From positions 1 to 25,953 of the IMG/VR virus record IMGVR_UViG_3300042542_001237: a stretch of 25,953 nt of DNA; one strand, 5' to 3'. Under the pieces are notes generated by a model. It was not told the DNA's origin. It searched no databases and saw nothing but the letters and a program-made list of their open reading frames with translations. Each line of letters starts with the position of its first letter. The stretch's first letter is position 1. Of this stretch, positions 7,576 to 16,170 are shown piece by piece. The translations under genes were made by a program, and so were the position numbers. Source of the stretch: a virus.

Positions 7576-8616
7576 TTACTCCCGGATTTGAATCGGCATG
7601 ATGAGATACGTCTGCTCTGTCATGCTAGTCGGCCTCAGCACGACCGGCGTTGTTGCACTATTGGCCGACAGTGTAACAGTCTCCGCTTGGCGCATGGCTT
7701 TAAGGCCATCGAGCAAGTAATGCACATTGAACGCCCAGGTGCCGGTTGCGGTGCATTCGTAAGTGATCAGCTCCTTGCCGTTGTTGGCATCGGCCTCGGC
7801 CGTGATGGCCAGAGCGCCAGCAGCGGCGACTAGTTTGACCACGGAGTTGTGCGCTTCTGCGATCAGCGCGACGCGCTCCAGGCAACGGGTGAAGCGGTGC
7901 CGGTCCAAGGTCATGGAGTGCTCAAAGCTGGCGGGCACCAGCGCTGCTACGTCGGGGTACTTGCCGTCAAGGATGCGGCTGTAGATGGTGATGCCATCAC
8001 CTGCATCGATGACTGCCTGACCGGATGCGGCAGCAATGCCGACGACTCGATCCTGCAACAGCTTCATCGTGCTGGCGGGCATCACCAGGTCAATGCCGTC
8101 TGGCAGCGCTACTGGCACACGCATCAGCCGGTGGCCGTCAGTGGCCTCCATGAACCCGGCTGCCATGTGGATGCCTTGGAGAATCTGCTTGCTGCTGTCG
8201 GTGCTGACGGCTGCCATGCAAGCGCGCACGCCAGCGGTTAGGTCCAGCTCAGCGCTAGGAGCCTCTACAGCGGGCAATGCCGGGTAATCCGCTGCATCCT
8301 GCACGGCAAGCCCGTAGGAGCCACTGGAGGCGCTCACAGCGCCGTCTGAGAGCGTTACAGGCTCGCCGTCGTCCATGCGGCTGACCAAGCCCGCCAGCAG
8401 CCGATACGGCAGCGCCACGGTGCCAGGTGTGTCGATGGCTGCCGGCACGGAGACCGTGATACCAAGTTCCAGGTTGAAGCCGGTCAAGGTCATGGTTGCG
8501 CCATCAGCAGCAATCAGGCAGCAGCTCAGGATCGGGTGGCTGTTGCTGGTACTGATGGCTGGGGCAATGGTGCGCAGCGCATGGCTTAGGTCAGCCTGCG
8601 TGGTGATGAGTTTCAT
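7576..8616 (-). CDS. dnaN: DnaN-like beta sliding clamp
   Basis: This 346-residue protein has a complete three-domain clamp layout. Domain 1 includes HALRTIAPAISTSNSHPILS and a TGFNLELGI strand. Domain 2 includes FMEATDGHRLMRVPV, the well-conserved clamp ATDGHRL motif. Domain 3 ends YLIMPIQIRE, like the YLIMP-R-L end of bacterial beta clamps. The clamp encircles DNA and tethers polymerase and other partners. It is slightly shorter than the usual 366 residues. The gene is coupled to the small gene upstream (ATGA) and sits between the iteron array and the terminase genes, so clamp and packaging genes share one operon. No polymerase or clamp loader is visible, so it must work with host or off-window proteins. 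Confidence 0.92.
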   Translation of the reverse strand: MKLITTQADLSHALRTIAPAISTSNSHPILSCCLIAADGATMTLTGFNLELGITVSVPAAIDTPGTVALPYRLLAGLVSRMDDGEPVTLSDGAVSASSGSYGLAVQDAADYPALPAVEAPSAELDLTAGVRACMAAVSTDSSKQILQGIHMAAGFMEATDGHRLMRVPVALPDGIDLVMPASTMKLLQDRVVGIAAASGQAVIDAGDGITIYSRILDGKYPDVAALVPASFEHSMTLDRHRFTRCLERVALIAEAHNSVVKLVAAAGALAITAEADANNGKELITYECTATGTWAFNVHYLLDGLKAMRQAETVTLSANSATTPVVLRPTSMTEQTYLIMPIQIRE

Positions 8617-9051: not shown

Positions 9052-9412
9052 GGCGGACGCAAGGAATGCAGCGTAGGACAGGGATCTCAGGTATGGCGGA
9101 CGCAAGTGAGCCATGAGCGGACGCAAAAAACCTAGTCGTAGCAAGGAAGGACGCAAAATCGGGTTTTTCCCTTACCCCCCCCTATACGTTCTACACCTTC
9201 CCCCCTCCCCGTTTTTCTATACACGATATTTATCCCCTATTTGCGTCCGCCAAGGTAAAAAGATAGATAGAGACAGGGTTTTTGCGTCCGCCATTTGCGT
9301 CCGCCTAGCGTCCGCCGTGACGCAAGTTGCGTCCGCCAACCGTCTCACCATGCGTCCATCCTGAGACCCTCGATAAGACGGTCACGGGATTTGCCGCCCC
9401 TGGCGGACGCAA
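9052..9412. repeat. Iteron array in two opposed clusters, candidate replication origin
   Basis: The 11-mer GGCGGACGCAA or its complement occurs exactly seven times. Forward copies are at 9052, 9095 and 9402. Reverse copies start at 9241, 9282, 9295 and 9327. Variants with one change lie at 9116 (forward) and 9306 (reverse), and one with two changes at 9146 (forward). The left cluster is all forward and the right cluster all reverse, apart from the 9402 copy inside the primase C-terminus. Start-to-start steps within clusters are 43, 21, 30 and 41, 13, 11, 21 bases, mostly near whole helical turns. The array lies between primase-helicase and clamp genes, which is typical of iteron origins. The binding protein is unknown. 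Confidence 0.85.
9157..9240. other. Pyrimidine-rich, partly AT-rich core between iteron clusters
   Basis: This non-coding stretch lies between the forward and reverse iteron clusters. The plus strand is strongly pyrimidine-biased, with runs of eight C (9175-9182), six C (9200-9205) and four C (9207-9210), then an AT-rich patch (ATACACGATATTTAT). In an origin this would be the likely unwinding element, and its G-rich complement could adopt a quadruplex. No gene with good coding character lies here. Confidence 0.55.
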
Positions 9413-11714
9413 GTTTTGGAAAGATCTGCCGCAGTGCTGGCACCAGCAGCCGTGGTGCCTTGACCGTCCGGTCTGTCGGTGGGTCCATGAGCCAGCGGTC
9501 ATTCTTATCTAGGTAGCCCTCATCTCTGTACCAGGTTTGCAGTGCTTCCCAGACCTTCTTTACGGATACTGTTGCACCTTCCTCATGGTGCAATCCAATG
9601 GCATCGCAGAACTCCCACAGATGACAACTTGCACGCCTGACATCCTCCATGGCCTGCCGACCTGAGCTATAGTCGATGCCGTATTCGATCGACAGCGACA
9701 AGCCCTCAAGCAACCAATTGAGAAACGCTGGGCATATCTGTTGCTGGATGAAGTCGGGGTCATCCTTTAGACGTGGATCGGCTTGGATGTGGCTTGATTC
9801 TGTAGGCGTTGCCATGAACGTCTTACGGAACCTGAACACATGGAACCGGGTCTCAATGGCCACCTGATCACCAGACAGCGACGGGTCTTTGTTCAGGTTA
9901 AACACGAACAACGACGACGGCACAAACTGCGACTCCTGCACACCTTTCAGCTCGTAAGATAGTTCCTCGCCGCTAATTGCAGCCTTAAGTGACTGCAGGT
10001 TGTCGATATGCACAAACTGACTATTTTCGCTGGACCAATTGACTGAGGCACCACGCAGCGGGGCAATGGGAAACTTGCGGCCTTGGTCGTACTGGCGAAA
10101 GTCGGCCAGAGAGCAGGACGTGAAATTGCGGCTGCCGAGGGTGTCGCGCAGGGCAGTGCGGATAGTGTCTTTGCCGTTGCTGCCCTCACCAATCATGAGC
10201 ACTGCCCGTGGCCTGCCGCGTGTGGCTCGGTATTTGGTCAGGTCAAGGCCGCTGCCAAGGATGCGCTGCAGCGTGTCACGGTCACCGGGCTCCACAGCTT
10301 CCAACAAGCGCCATAAGTGCTGCGGGTTTGCCTCGGGGTTGTAGGCGTAGGCGGTGACGTAGGTGAAGGCGGTGTCTGGGTCGTGTGGCGTAAAGGCGTA
10401 ATTGAGTTTGCGGCCTGCCCATGACCACGACACCACGCCATTGGCGCAGTTGATCGCATTGGCCGGGTTGACCGGCACAGGGTCCAGCAACCGCCGCATC
10501 CATGCGAGGGCTTCATCGACGTATTTAGGGCGCTTCCACGGGTAGCAACGCTCGCCGGTGTTGCCATTGACAACGTGCATCTGCGACAGCAGCGCAGCAA
10601 TGCTGGGCGCTAGCTCCTCGTCGGTAATCGGCTTGTAATGGGTGCCACACCAGCAATGGAGTACACCATCAACACAGATCCATCGTGGCGACTGGGCTTG
10701 GAACACATGCCGCACTACCAGGTCGAGCCATTCGGTGTCGGTTTTGTTGTAGAGCTGCAGGTTGATCACCTCAGGCTCTACTGCTGTGGTCTCACGGCTG
10801 CGCCTGCTGCGTGGTGCTGGCGTGGATGGCTTCCAGCCGTGATGCCGCGCCCAGTACCAGAACGTGCCAGCACTGATCTGATTACCGCCGGAGCTGGCGA
10901 TCTGCTGCAGACCATGCCACTCAGGGCTGTGCTGCTGCATCAGGGCAATGGCCTGGTCGGCGTCACCGCAGGCTTTGATCAGCCCCCAGAAGATATTGCG
11001 GTAGATGTGGTAGGTGCCGGTACCGGGCTGGCGCTGCGGGATAAAGGCAAGTGCCTCGCGCACCTCGTCAATGCTGCGCTCGATCGGTTCGGCGTAGGAC
11101 TGAGCCGGTCGCTCGTGCTGGTAGTAGGTCTCTGATGGGAGTGCAGCCTCAATGTCAGCCACGCTGTAGCGGTGCCCTGCATGGGATACCATCTGGCACA
11201 TCTCACCCAGCTCACCATCGGCACCGGCGTGGAAGGTGCCTGGCAGACGCATGACACGAGCTGGATTCTTGATGCTGCGGTCAGCATCGGCGTAGTCGAG
11301 CAGCCGGGTCTGCAGCAGACGCCAGTGCTCAATGGTGATCGGCTCGGACAGGACCCAGTAGTTGTGGATCGACTTTCCGCCGGTTGACACCTGCATGGTC
11401 GGCTCGGGCAGCCGCAGTTCTTGCCATGCGGTGAGTTGCCAGTCGGTTGGGCGGTCGTCCCATTCGCAGAAAAACGCACGGCAGGTCGTGATGTCAGCGT
11501 CCTTGTCGCCGCCATCGTTGATGACGACGTAAACGCCGCGGCCTTCGCGCTGCCACTCGTTGATACGGATGCGTGAGAACCCGCCTTTGCGGCCTGCATC
11601 GCCTGCTTTTTTGGGATTTTCAGCGTGGTAGAACGCCCGCAGCCGGATCTCACCAGCAGGTTTGCCCAGTGCATGGACAAACTGCCTGCCAAGGTCAAAG
11701 TCAATGTCCTTCAT
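9345..11714 (-). CDS. Primase-polymerase / D5-type SF3 helicase fusion
   Basis: This 789-residue replication protein has two parts. The N-terminal part looks like an archaeo-eukaryotic primase: acidic motif FFCEWDD (81-87), STGGKSIH (110-117) and NPARVMRLPGT (150-160). A PriCT-like helical linker follows (about 210-295). The C-terminal half is a D5/P4-type SF3 helicase with Walker A GEGSNGKDT (509-517), a downstream WSSENSQ segment (560-566) and a FVFNLNKDP segment (603-611). Such proteins prime and unwind at phage and plasmid origins. The 3' end contains an iteron, and the array lies directly downstream. It starts at an ATG overlapping the stop of the small RHH gene. Confidence 0.9.
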   Translation of the reverse strand: MKDIDFDLGRQFVHALGKPAGEIRLRAFYHAENPKKAGDAGRKGGFSRIRINEWQREGRGVYVVINDGGDKDADITTCRAFFCEWDDRPTDWQLTAWQELRLPEPTMQVSTGGKSIHNYWVLSEPITIEHWRLLQTRLLDYADADRSIKNPARVMRLPGTFHAGADGELGEMCQMVSHAGHRYSVADIEAALPSETYYQHERPAQSYAEPIERSIDEVREALAFIPQRQPGTGTYHIYRNIFWGLIKACGDADQAIALMQQHSPEWHGLQQIASSGGNQISAGTFWYWARHHGWKPSTPAPRSRRSRETTAVEPEVINLQLYNKTDTEWLDLVVRHVFQAQSPRWICVDGVLHCWCGTHYKPITDEELAPSIAALLSQMHVVNGNTGERCYPWKRPKYVDEALAWMRRLLDPVPVNPANAINCANGVVSWSWAGRKLNYAFTPHDPDTAFTYVTAYAYNPEANPQHLWRLLEAVEPGDRDTLQRILGSGLDLTKYRATRGRPRAVLMIGEGSNGKDTIRTALRDTLGSRNFTSCSLADFRQYDQGRKFPIAPLRGASVNWSSENSQFVHIDNLQSLKAAISGEELSYELKGVQESQFVPSSLFVFNLNKDPSLSGDQVAIETRFHVFRFRKTFMATPTESSHIQADPRLKDDPDFIQQQICPAFLNWLLEGLSLSIEYGIDYSSGRQAMEDVRRASCHLWEFCDAIGLHHEEGATVSVKKVWEALQTWYRDEGYLDKNDRWLMDPPTDRTVKAPRLLVPALRQIFPKLASARGGKSRDRLIEGLRMDAW

Positions 11715-12360: not shown

Positions 12361-12563
12361 CTGTTATGGACCCAACAACTGCATTTGATCATCGGCTACA
12401 GCACGTCCCTTATGAATGGAAAAGCCCAATTTCCGAGGTCGTAGACACGTTTGAAACAGTACAAATTGGGCTTAAAAGCATCGGCATTGAAGATCCTTTT
12501 GTGTTGATTGAAGCCGTAAGGCTTGTTTTTGATCGCTATGACAAAGCAAACCCTGAAGAATGA
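12357..12563 (+). CDS. Hypothetical protein between HNH and helicase-methylase
   Basis: This 68-residue protein contains HVPYEWKSPISEVVDTFETVQ and a C-terminal helix IEAVRLVFDRYDKANPEE. A GAGG sequence lies 5 bases before the ATG. Both ends overlap neighbours in ATGA style, so it is tightly coupled. It is AT-rich like the HNH gene, and the two may have arrived together. I do not recognise a family; HNH nucleases are often paired with small partner or immunity proteins, but nothing in the sequence proves that here. Confidence 0.65.
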   Translation: MTVMDPTTAFDHRLQHVPYEWKSPISEVVDTFETVQIGLKSIGIEDPFVLIEAVRLVFDRYDKANPEE

Positions 12564-14818
12564 CCTACTCCGACTTTCTAGCTTCCAAATCCACCGCTTG
12601 CCCTGCTGCTGGCTTTGATCCGCAGCAGTTCACCGCGCCACTGTTCCCGTTTCAGCGGGACATCGTCACCATGGCCTGCCGTGTTGGCAGGTTCTGCATC
12701 TGGGCCGACTGCGGCATGGGTAAAACCGCCATGCAGCTTGATTGGGCGCATCAGGTGCATCAGCACACTGGCGGCAACGTGCTGGTGCTGGCACCACTAG
12801 CAGTGGCACACCAGACCGTCCGCGAGGGTGCCAAGTTTGGCATCCCGTGCGCGTTCGCTGCAACCCAGTCCGACGTGCAACCCGGCATCACAGTCACCAA
12901 CTACGAGAAACTGAGCCACTTCGACCCGCCCAGCTTCGCTGGCGTGGTGCTCGACGAGAGCAGCATCCTCAAGGCGTACACCGGCAAGATCCGCAACCAG
13001 ATCATCGAGTCGTTCGCGCAGACACCGTTCCGGCTGGCCTGCTCAGCCACCCCGGCGCCCAACGATCACATGGAGCTTGGCAACCATGCCGAGTTCATCG
13101 GTGTGATGACCAGGACCGAGATGCTGGCCATGTTCTTCGTCCATGACGGCGGCGACACCAGCAAGTGGCGGCTCAAGGGTCACGCTCAGTCCAAGTTCTG
13201 GGAGTGGGTCTGCAGCTGGGCTGTCACCATCCGCAAGCCATCGGACCTGGGCTACGACGACGGCAGCTTCATCCTGCCTGACCTGCAGATCAATGACTGC
13301 ACGGTTGAGACACCACGCGAGGCCATGGCCGACGATGCCGGCCAGATGGCGCTGTTCGCCATGGAAGCCCGGACCCTCAGCGATCAGCGGCACGTCCGCA
13401 AGGCATCACTGCAGATGCGCGTTGATGCAGCCGCTGCCCTGGCCAACAACAGCACCGAGCAATGGCTGATCTGGTGTGATCTTAATGACGAGTCCAAAGC
13501 GCTTACCACTGCCATCGATGGCGCGGTCGAGGTGTCAGGCAGCGACAGTGATGACCACAAGCGCCGTGCCGCGATCGACTTTCAAGATGGCAAAATCCGA
13601 GTGCTGGTCAGCAAGCCCAGCATTTTCGGCTTTGGTCTCAACTTTCAGGGCTGCCACAACGTCGCCTTTGTTGGTCTGTCGCACAGCTACGAGGCGTTCT
13701 ATCAAGCGATCCGCCGGTGCTGGCGATTCGGGCAGCAGCACCCGGTCAACGCGCACATCATCTACGACGTGGCCGAGGGCCGCGTGATCGAGAACATCCG
13801 CCGCAAGGAAGCGGACAGCATCGCAATGGCTGAGTCAATGGTCACCATCATGAAGCAAACCACCATGGAACAACTCAAGAAGATCCAGCGCCAGGTTGCG
13901 CCACACATCACTGAGCACAAGACCGGCGACAACTGGGACCTGTACATGGGCGATTGCGTTGAGAGCATCAAGCAGCTCGACTCAGACAGCATCCACTACA
14001 GCATCTTCAGCCCGCCGTTTGCGTCGCTGTACACCTACTCCAACAGCGACCGCGACATGGGCAACAGCCGCAACGACCAGGAGTTCTTCGATCACTTCGT
14101 CTACCTGGCCAAAGAGCTGCATCGCGTGCTGATGCCTGGCCGATTGATCAGCTTCCACTGCATGAATCTGCCCAGCAGCAAAGAGCGCGACGGCTTCATC
14201 GGCGTCAAGGACTTCCGCGGCGACATGCTGCGCATCTTCCAGGCTGCTGGTTTTGTGTTTCATTCAGAGGTTTGCATCTGGAAGGACCCCGTCACTGCCA
14301 TGCAGCGCACCAAGGCGATCGGCCTGCTGCACAAGCAGATCCGCAAGGACTCAGCCCTGAGCCGTCAAGGCATCCCTGACTATCTGGTCACGGTGCGCAA
14401 GCTGGGCGACAACCCAGAGCCATGCGCAGGGCCGTTTACTGAGTTTGCTGGCGAGAACCCACCAGCCAAGAGCGGCGACGCCATCAAGGACAGCATCAAC
14501 ATCTGGCAGCGCTACGCCAGTCCGGTGTGGATGGACATCAACCCGTCCGACACCCTGCAATACCGCAGCGCCCGCGCCAACGACGACGAGCGGCACATCT
14601 GCCCGCTGCAGCTCGAGGTGATCCGTCGTGGCCTGCAGCTGTGGAGCAACCCAGGTGATCTGGTGCTCAGCCCGTTCGCTGGCATCGGCAGCGAGGGCTA
14701 CGTCAGCCTGCAGATGGGTCGCCGGTTCGTTGGCTTCGAGCTGAAGCACAGCTACTTCAACTGCGCTGTCAAGAACCTGCAGGCCGTCGAGTCGCACAAG
14801 CAGGGGGTGCTGGTGTGA
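12560..14818 (+). CDS. SNF2-type helicase / DNA methyltransferase fusion
   Basis: This 752-residue protein joins two enzymes. Residues 1-440 are an SF2 SNF2-like ATPase: Walker A ADCGMGKT (49-56), DEAH-box variant DESS (132-135), SATPAPND (162-169), GFGLNFQGC (357-365) and QAIRRCWRFGQ (382-392). Residues 455-745 are a beta-class amino-methyltransferase: catalytic SPPF (484-487) first, a target-recognition region (about 490-690), then the AdoMet motif LSPFAGIGSEG (703-713). SPPF rather than DPPY hints at N4-cytosine, though N6-adenine is not excluded. Similar fusions are known from phages. It may modify phage DNA while translocating. It is coupled to the next helicase gene (GTGTGA overlap). 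Confidence 0.9.
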   Translation: MTYSDFLASKSTACPAAGFDPQQFTAPLFPFQRDIVTMACRVGRFCIWADCGMGKTAMQLDWAHQVHQHTGGNVLVLAPLAVAHQTVREGAKFGIPCAFAATQSDVQPGITVTNYEKLSHFDPPSFAGVVLDESSILKAYTGKIRNQIIESFAQTPFRLACSATPAPNDHMELGNHAEFIGVMTRTEMLAMFFVHDGGDTSKWRLKGHAQSKFWEWVCSWAVTIRKPSDLGYDDGSFILPDLQINDCTVETPREAMADDAGQMALFAMEARTLSDQRHVRKASLQMRVDAAAALANNSTEQWLIWCDLNDESKALTTAIDGAVEVSGSDSDDHKRRAAIDFQDGKIRVLVSKPSIFGFGLNFQGCHNVAFVGLSHSYEAFYQAIRRCWRFGQQHPVNAHIIYDVAEGRVIENIRRKEADSIAMAESMVTIMKQTTMEQLKKIQRQVAPHITEHKTGDNWDLYMGDCVESIKQLDSDSIHYSIFSPPFASLYTYSNSDRDMGNSRNDQEFFDHFVYLAKELHRVLMPGRLISFHCMNLPSSKERDGFIGVKDFRGDMLRIFQAAGFVFHSEVCIWKDPVTAMQRTKAIGLLHKQIRKDSALSRQGIPDYLVTVRKLGDNPEPCAGPFTEFAGENPPAKSGDAIKDSINIWQRYASPVWMDINPSDTLQYRSARANDDERHICPLQLEVIRRGLQLWSNPGDLVLSPFAGIGSEGYVSLQMGRRFVGFELKHSYFNCAVKNLQAVESHKQGVLV

Positions 14819-16170
14819 ACCTCCGCCCTTATCAGCAGCAGCTCATCATCGACATCCGCCTGCAGTACCAGCTAGGCAAGCGCACGGTTCTAGCAGTGCT
14901 ACCGACCGGCGGCGGCAAAACGGTGTGCTTCAGCTACATCGCCCAATCCGCCGCCCGCAAGGGCAACCGCGTCTGCATCCTGGTGCATAGGGCTGAGCTG
15001 CTGGACCAAGCCAGCCGCAGCCTCACGGCTATGGGCGTCAGTCATGGCCGAATCGCGGCAGGCCGCAGCATGGACCTAAGCCATGCGGTGCAGGTTGCCT
15101 CAGTCCAGACCCTTGCCCGCAGGCTTCACAAACTGCCGAGAGAGTTCTTTCAGCTTCTGGTGGTGGACGAAGCGCACCACACCAATGCCGGTCAGTGGGC
15201 ATCGGTCATTTGCCATTTCCAAATAGCGCACGTTTTAGGAGTTACAGCGACCCCATGCCGTGGCGACGGGCGCGGGCTTGGCGACCACTATGAGGCCATG
15301 GTGCAGGGACCCAGCGCTGCTTGGTTGACTGATAACGGCTACTTGGCCAGTGCTCGTGTCCTGGCGCCGCCGGGATTCAATGCCACCGGCCTGCGCAAGC
15401 GGATGGGTGACTTTGACACCAAAGAGGCCGAGCAGCGCGTTGGCACCATCATGGGTGACTGTTGCAGTCATTACCGCAAGCATCTGGCAGGCCAGACGGC
15501 TATTGCGTTCTGCTGCTCGGTGGCGCATGCCGAGGCGGTGGCTGCCCTGTTTATGAGCCAAGGGATCCCAGCCGCCAGCATTGACGGCACCATGACCGCC
15601 GACCAGCGCAGCGACCTCTTAACAGCACTCGGAACTGGTCGGATCAAGGTACTTACATCGTGCTCACTTATTGGTGAAGGCGTAGACGTGCCAAGCGTTG
15701 GGGGTTGCATCCTGCTCAGGCCAACGCAGTCAGTCGGGCTGCACTTGCAGATGATCGGCCGCTGCCTGAGGCTAAGCCACGGCAAGACCGCTGTCGTGCT
15801 GGACCACGTCGGCAATACGCTGCGGCTCGGGCATCATCTCGAAGACCGCGACTGGACCCTGGACGGTGCCGCCAAGCGTGACCGCGAGCAGGCACCATCG
15901 GTCAAGGTGTGCCCGGTGTGCTTTGCCACCAGCATGAGCGCTACGCAGATCTGCCCTGACTGCGGGCATGTGTTTGCCCCGCAGGAGACCAGGGAGCTAA
16001 AGGTAGTTGAGGGCGAGCTGCAAGAGTTGACCACACGCGAGCGCAAACGCGAGCAGGGCACAGCCCAGTCCCTTGAAGACCTCCGCAAACTGGCGCAGCA
16101 ACGCGGCTACAAACGCGGATGGGCAGAGCGCGTCTACCAGGCTAGGTTGGCCAAGCGGCATGGGTTATGA
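14815..16170 (+). CDS. SF2 DEAH-box helicase with C-terminal zinc ribbon
   Basis: This 451-residue helicase is of the SSL2/UvsW-like group. Motifs are PTGGGKT (30-36), DEAH (118-121), TATP (144-147), GEGVDVP (287-293) and QMIGRCLR (312-319). A zinc ribbon with CPVC (366-369) and CPDC (380-383) follows, then a charged coiled region (about 395-450). Such helicases remodel branched DNA, forks or R-loops during phage replication and repair. It starts with GTG inside the end of the preceding gene. The nuclease seen in type III Res subunits is absent from this chain, but a separate VRR-NUC gene follows at once. Confidence 0.9.
   Translation: MNLRPYQQQLIIDIRLQYQLGKRTVLAVLPTGGGKTVCFSYIAQSAARKGNRVCILVHRAELLDQASRSLTAMGVSHGRIAAGRSMDLSHAVQVASVQTLARRLHKLPREFFQLLVVDEAHHTNAGQWASVICHFQIAHVLGVTATPCRGDGRGLGDHYEAMVQGPSAAWLTDNGYLASARVLAPPGFNATGLRKRMGDFDTKEAEQRVGTIMGDCCSHYRKHLAGQTAIAFCCSVAHAEAVAALFMSQGIPAASIDGTMTADQRSDLLTALGTGRIKVLTSCSLIGEGVDVPSVGGCILLRPTQSVGLHLQMIGRCLRLSHGKTAVVLDHVGNTLRLGHHLEDRDWTLDGAAKRDREQAPSVKVCPVCFATSMSATQICPDCGHVFAPQETRELKVVEGELQELTTRERKREQGTAQSLEDLRKLAQQRGYKRGWAERVYQARLAKRHGL

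Follow-up and report, generated by a model that had tools for sequence, protein, structure and literature searches.

In SaPIbov1, iterons lie on both sides of an AT-rich region. The C-terminal domains of SaPI Rep and of SCCmec Cch2 act on iterons that are located directly downstream of the protein's own gene (PMC7581432). The Streptococcus satellite Javan752 (L247, 3656-3956) has 11 AACCTAA iterons that flank an AT-rich core 3' of rep, and it also has a recurring AACGTTGATAT repeat. In P4, the crr annotations show opposed type-1 repeats (++/--) directly 3' of the alpha gene, and there is a second repeat type. The alpha protein is a primase-helicase-winged-helix initiator with a TOPRIM primase, the repeat word is GGTGAACA, and a separate second array is present at ori1.

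A region directly 3' of the rep gene is also needed in pRN1, the Rep of which (ORF904) consists of an AEP primase, an SF3 helicase and a C-terminal winged helix (PMC4234260). The authors of that work describe a 100-nt stem-loop 3' of the Rep gene, without iterons, and propose stem-loops for this class of Rep proteins; a gene for a small DNA-binding repressor (orf56) is part of the operon (PMC4234260).

The locus described here is found in the IMG/VR record IMGVR_UViG_3300042542_001237. The window is this whole stretch of 25,953 bases, and all coordinates refer to it. Like SaPI Rep, SaPI5 Rep and Cch2, the locus combines a D5/AAA+ self-loading initiator and an apparent C-terminal reader with iterons 3' of the gene (PMC7581432), here too on both sides of an AT-rich region. 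The iteron words are unrelated, however, the host range is different, and the similarity of the helicase to Streptococcus satellite proteins is only 22-25%. Moreover, the SaPI/PICI elements are satellites, whereas the present array occurs in full tailed phages; the record has TerL, portal and head genes. With P4 the locus shares the type of initiator, the opposed repeats directly 3' of its gene and the presence of a second type of repeat, but there is an AEP domain instead of TOPRIM, and one array only. The domain order of Rep and the 3' position of the putative origin are those of pRN1, the SF3 assignment being made via DUF5906/D5_N matches. The small RHH gene of the locus has a counterpart in pRN1 orf56, the product of which is also an RHH protein. 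In contrast to the extended stem-loop described for pRN1, the present phages and plasmids have iterons.

The repeat array and its surroundings

The features of the locus are as follows (coordinates, strand, description).

7576..8616, minus strand: beta sliding clamp, 346 aa
8613..8813, minus strand: small protein, 66 aa
8774..9046, minus strand: RHH (CopG/NikA-like) protein, 90 aa; not conserved with the array
9052..9062, plus strand: exact iteron immediately preceding the RHH gene
9095..9105, plus strand: iteron, exact, rep-distal cluster
9116..9126, plus strand: iteron, one mismatch
9132..9146, minus strand: second conserved box CCTTGCTACGACTAG (consensus CCYTTGSWANNACTRG), from conservation in relatives
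9146..9156, plus strand: iteron, two mismatches; full CGGACGCAA in relative L017
9157..9240, no strand: core between the opposed clusters, with G-runs on the rep strand and an AT-rich segment
9212..9246, no strand: probable DNA unwinding element, weakest 35 bp of the core
9241..9251, minus strand: iteron, exact, core edge
9282..9292, minus strand: iteron, exact
9295..9305, minus strand: iteron, exact
9306..9316, minus strand: iteron, one mismatch
9315..9325, plus strand: eleventh, degenerate iteron, core GACGCAA; full copy at this place in many relatives
9327..9337, minus strand: iteron, exact, rep-proximal cluster
9345..11714, minus strand: Rep, 789 aa; AEP/PrimPol primase, D5_N and SF3-like helicase, C-terminal winged helix (about residues 690-789)
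9402..9412, plus strand: exact iteron within rep, at its 3' end; position shared with CGGACGC-class relatives

As the preliminary description stated, seven exact and three near copies of the 11-mer GGCGGACGCAA were counted in the 361 bases at 9052-9412. The exact copies start at 9052+, 9095+, 9241-, 9282-, 9295-, 9327- and 9402+; the near copies have one mismatch at 9116+ and 9306- and two mismatches at 9146+. No exact copy was found outside this interval in the whole record, and the number expected for the whole record from base composition is 0.025. In other words, several copies of one short word are clustered here and are rare elsewhere in the replicon, as in an iteron origin. The forward copies occupy 9052-9156 and the reverse ones 9241-9337; a further forward copy, at 9402, falls within the primase-helicase gene, at its 3' end. 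In the direction of rep, a single reverse copy within the gene comes first, then forward copies, an 84-bp core and reverse copies.

The helical phasing that had been proposed is also seen, i.e. seven of the nine start-to-start distances in the window are within 0.15 of whole turns (at 10.5 bp per turn). In 38 distinct layouts, neighbours of the same orientation are separated only by 10-13, 21-24, 29-32, 40-44 or 50-52 bp, and these classes are about one helical turn apart.

The core has a GC content of 48%, as compared to about 59% for the record, and its plus strand is C/T-rich; the rep strand of the core is G-rich in most relatives. In terms of duplex stability, the segment 9212-9246 ranks in the lowest five of all 35-bp segments of the record. 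In 26 loci, the median share of same-size stretches that are as weak as the core is 3%, which is to say that the core is weaker than about 97% of them. These values indicate, with moderate strength, a low-stability unwinding element beside the iterons.

The second box, CCYTTGSWANNACTRG, was missed in the preliminary description. It occurs in one to three copies per array, in either orientation and flipping between relatives, at places near +70 to +100 from the end of rep on the left of the core and near +200 and +260-280 on the right. There are two exceptions: L085 has the left copy only, and L079 has one copy at two mismatches. The sequence of the box is constant while the iteron words change, and hardly any copies, even with one mismatch allowed, were found in other parts of the scanned records.

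The array lies directly 3' of the gene for the 789-aa Rep. The nearest solved structure to the N-terminal AEP domain is that of the cyanophage S-2L PrimPol, 6zp9 (profile E 6e-39; Foldseek E 3e-13). The helicase half has D5_N and DUF5906 matches, on which the SF3 assignment rests; a profile match to 7ola (listed as DNA primase) is weak. The central helicase region is of low confidence in the AlphaFold model. The last 107 residues are predicted to adopt a winged-helix fold (pLDDT 79), and their nearest PDB structures are mostly winged-helix proteins, with no E-value better than 0.09. An initiator gene with a DNA-binding domain, the winged helix being a prediction, is thus adjacent to the iterons.

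On the other side of the array the RHH gene, the small ORF, the beta clamp, one more ORF and the large terminase follow on the strand of rep; the earlier placement of the array between a primase-helicase and a sliding-clamp operon is therefore correct. The record also encodes SSB, RecT-like and exonuclease proteins, a sigma factor and an integrase. The TerL protein shares 81% identity with that of Synechococcus phage S-H1 and 78% with that of KBS-S-2A, and a Synechococcus-like host is therefore likely; these identities and the integrase gene support the original assignment to a temperate cyanobacterial phage. A full-length beta clamp (7576-8616) is found near the PrimPol, and no scanned window ORF is annotated as a separate replicative DNA polymerase. 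The phage clamp may serve PrimPol or host Pol III. We also note that 12560-14818 is a single ORF of 752 aa in which an N6/N4 DNA methylase domain comes after helicase domains, adjoined by a second SF2 helicase ORF at 14815-16170.

S-H1 and KBS-S-2A are absent among the Rep matches with E below 1e-30. The only cultured phage record that matches Rep below this value is S-2L, via the primase domain: only the N-terminal part matches, and the AEP domains are 34-44% identical. Directly 3' of the S-2L PrimPol gene there is a 359-bp gap (L130, 6027-6330) with inverted G/C-rich repeats, in which no clear iteron word was seen. This gap is a candidate origin of the 2-aminoadenine phage.

Conservation of the array and variation of the repeat word

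Viral-contig scans gave 131 relatives of Rep, of which 80 were kept, 57-98% identical. Over this whole range of identity the array is found 3' of rep wherever enough downstream sequence exists. The repeat word depends on relatedness: it is GGCGGACGCAA in close relatives and TCGGACGCAA in others, and more distant relatives have CGAAGGCAA, CGGAGGCAA or CGGAYCCAA. The change is concerted across each array (CGGACGCAA, CGAAGGCAA, CGGAGGCAA, CGGAYCCAA), and the layout, forward on the left and reverse on the right, is kept. A degenerate array was seen in a few of the most diverged relatives (L220, L239), and L086, L087 and L201 have a weak one. Opposed repeats 3' of the gene are also present in several phages that share only the AEP domain, e.g. 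TGTAACGG/CCGTTACA in L228. The suggestion that the 11-mer itself is an origin signature has to be modified accordingly: the word is common to close relatives, but the conserved features are the layout and the position. Nor is the symmetric layout unusual, as had been thought, since there are precedents in P4 crr and in Javan752.

In nine relatives of 22-45 kb the CGGACGCAA copies are confined to one array of about 0.4 kb. The tenth record of the CGGACGCAA search, L111, was rejected; its two-iteron pattern is an unrelated coding repeat and it has no Rep. A seeming natural Rep chimera (L105/G003) was also discarded, since its low N-terminal identity is due to frameshifts in the contig. The search of genome contigs yielded one relative only, a MAG contig of Xenococcaceae in which the array is spaced more widely.

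The protein that reads the repeats was sought by comparing the distances between iteron words with the distances between Rep domains in 65 distinct Reps. The correlation is highest for residues 701-789 (r 0.83) and lower for the AEP domain (0.66), the linker (0.63) and the helicase (0.67). When the other domains are controlled for, the C-terminus retains a partial r of 0.65 (0 of 500 permutations, a procedure that leaves some shared ancestry), and no positive residual correlation with the word is left for the other Rep domains once the C-terminus is accounted for. Alignment columns without a residue shared between the CGGACGC class and the rest make up 8 of 89 in the C-terminus, versus 3 of 300 in the helicase. 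Most of the correlation between C-terminus and word comes from the separation of the word classes; for CGGACGC-class members alone the effect (partial value 0.14) cannot be told apart from general relatedness. From these sequence comparisons, we favour the C-terminal domain of Rep as the iteron reader.

Homologous Reps were also found on cyanobacterial plasmids. That of Cyanobacterium aponinum pAL20115e (4.6 kb) is 29.5% identical over 87%. Opposed arrays are located at the 3' end of the homologous rep in pAL20115e (GACTCAC, six forward then seven reverse), in pAL20118f (4.4 kb; TTGGGTAT then ATACCCAA) and in pCHL69-1 (86 kb; GACTCATT then AATGAGTC), in all three within a C-terminal extension of the rep reading frame. 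Only two other genes are listed for pAL20115e and pAL20118f, so the array is the natural candidate origin of both small plasmids, and we regard this as the strongest argument for the phage array being an origin. No array was found downstream of the DUF5906 genes of larger Nostoc-type plasmids that have a related helicase half. For three Cyanobacterium aponinum records of 4.4-4.6 kb (L128, L131, L132) the PLSDB gene table does not list the rep gene at the position of the match, and the putative origin array falls within the rep reading frame.

Probable origin function and alternative explanations

We consider it highly probable that the array is an iteron origin bound by Rep; the cluster beside the primase-helicase gene is very probably the docking site of that enzyme for copying the genome. 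The reading as an origin, already proposed in the preliminary description, has good support: within the record the array is unique, in the relatives it is fixed 3' of the primase-helicase gene, and in small plasmids it lies 3' of the homologous rep. This reading rests on position, layout, conservation, the concerted variation of word and C-terminus, the weak core and the plasmid arrangement. GC skew, which had been named as a check, gives no independent support and is uninformative here because it follows the gene strand.

A plausible course of events would begin with the binding of the Rep winged-helix domain to the iterons of this temperate cyanophage origin. The opposed, helically phased clusters would nucleate Rep oligomers that face the core, the SF3/D5-type helicase would melt the weak AT-rich/G-run core, and the N-terminal PrimPol would prime on the exposed strands; extension may then follow with the phage clamp, SSB and host polymerase. 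Physical binding, the loading of a double hexamer, bidirectional firing and the use of the clamp are all inferred. More speculatively, cyanophages and small cyanobacterial plasmids could share one replicon family, i.e. a PrimPol-helicase with a swappable winged-helix reader, in which the word was replaced wholesale several times and the opposed geometry and the constant second box stayed fixed; the box might be the site of another protein that aids the head-to-head loading of two helicases. We regard this extension as possible but doubtful.

The RHH protein had been put forward as a possible binder, in which case the repeats would be an operator of the RHH/clamp operon or a centromere that partitions a prophage plasmid. 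The start of the RHH gene is 6 bp from the last iteron, short repeats are commonly bound by RHH proteins, and a CopG-type RHH protein is also encoded by one of the small plasmids that have a Rep homologue. Nevertheless, the array need not co-occur with an RHH gene: about 30 loci have retained the array with no homologue detected by an RHH profile in the 3.5 kb downstream. No Pfam families were found in the genes downstream of the RHH-less arrays. In the 44 loci that do have the RHH gene, RHH distance explains none of the word change after the Rep C-terminus, the partial correlations with the word being -0.37 for RHH and 0.76 for the C-terminus. The RHH protein is therefore disfavoured as the binder, and we judge its operator or centromere role to be very improbable.

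Binding by Rep would also be compatible with a cis region of the crr kind, with replication starting elsewhere, and the position of P4 crr directly 3' of alpha, with its opposed type-1 repeats and a separate ori1, speaks for this. P4, however, has the same repeats at both crr and ori1, and here no second array of the same word was found in the record or in the 22-45 kb relatives, most of which are not known to be complete; such a role seems unlikely. Finally, the opposed repeats could act as an inverted repeat that extrudes a hairpin, i.e. a stem-loop origin as in pRN1, rather than as protein sites. The array does fold far better than shuffled sequences (as DNA, z -6.6). This fold strength, on the other hand, is a trivial consequence of inverted copies of one word: the number of copies per side and the spacings differ between the two sides, so the complementarity is mostly confined to the repeats, and single copies are out of register. 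We hold a hairpin origin to be quite improbable. These assessments, taken together with that of the Rep-bound origin, need not sum to one because the alternatives partly overlap; in a crr-like role the array would still be bound by Rep.

Searches of the open-licence literature gave no paper on this array. Plasmids and satellite viruses already provide examples of the layout, but the papers found do not describe its conservation in many uncultured cyanophages or the match to the DNA-reading end of Rep. The present analysis adds a phage and plasmid family that is new, the concerted variation of the repeat word and the second box. A large group of uncultured cyanophages thereby receives a concrete prediction of both origin and initiator, and the specificity of protein and DNA can be tested on about 65 naturally occurring combinations of reader domain and recognition word. 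The locus also shows that AEP-SF3-winged-helix initiators can pair with iterons, where the work on pRN1 proposed stem-loops. For Synechococcus, a cassette of rep and array could serve as a new origin for plasmids.

A further example of repeats at such a place is seen in Mycobacterium phage TM4 (L249, 3777-4037), where the end (3') of the DNA polymerase/primase gene has an over-represented word, TGACGG, in either orientation; this region is a possible origin.
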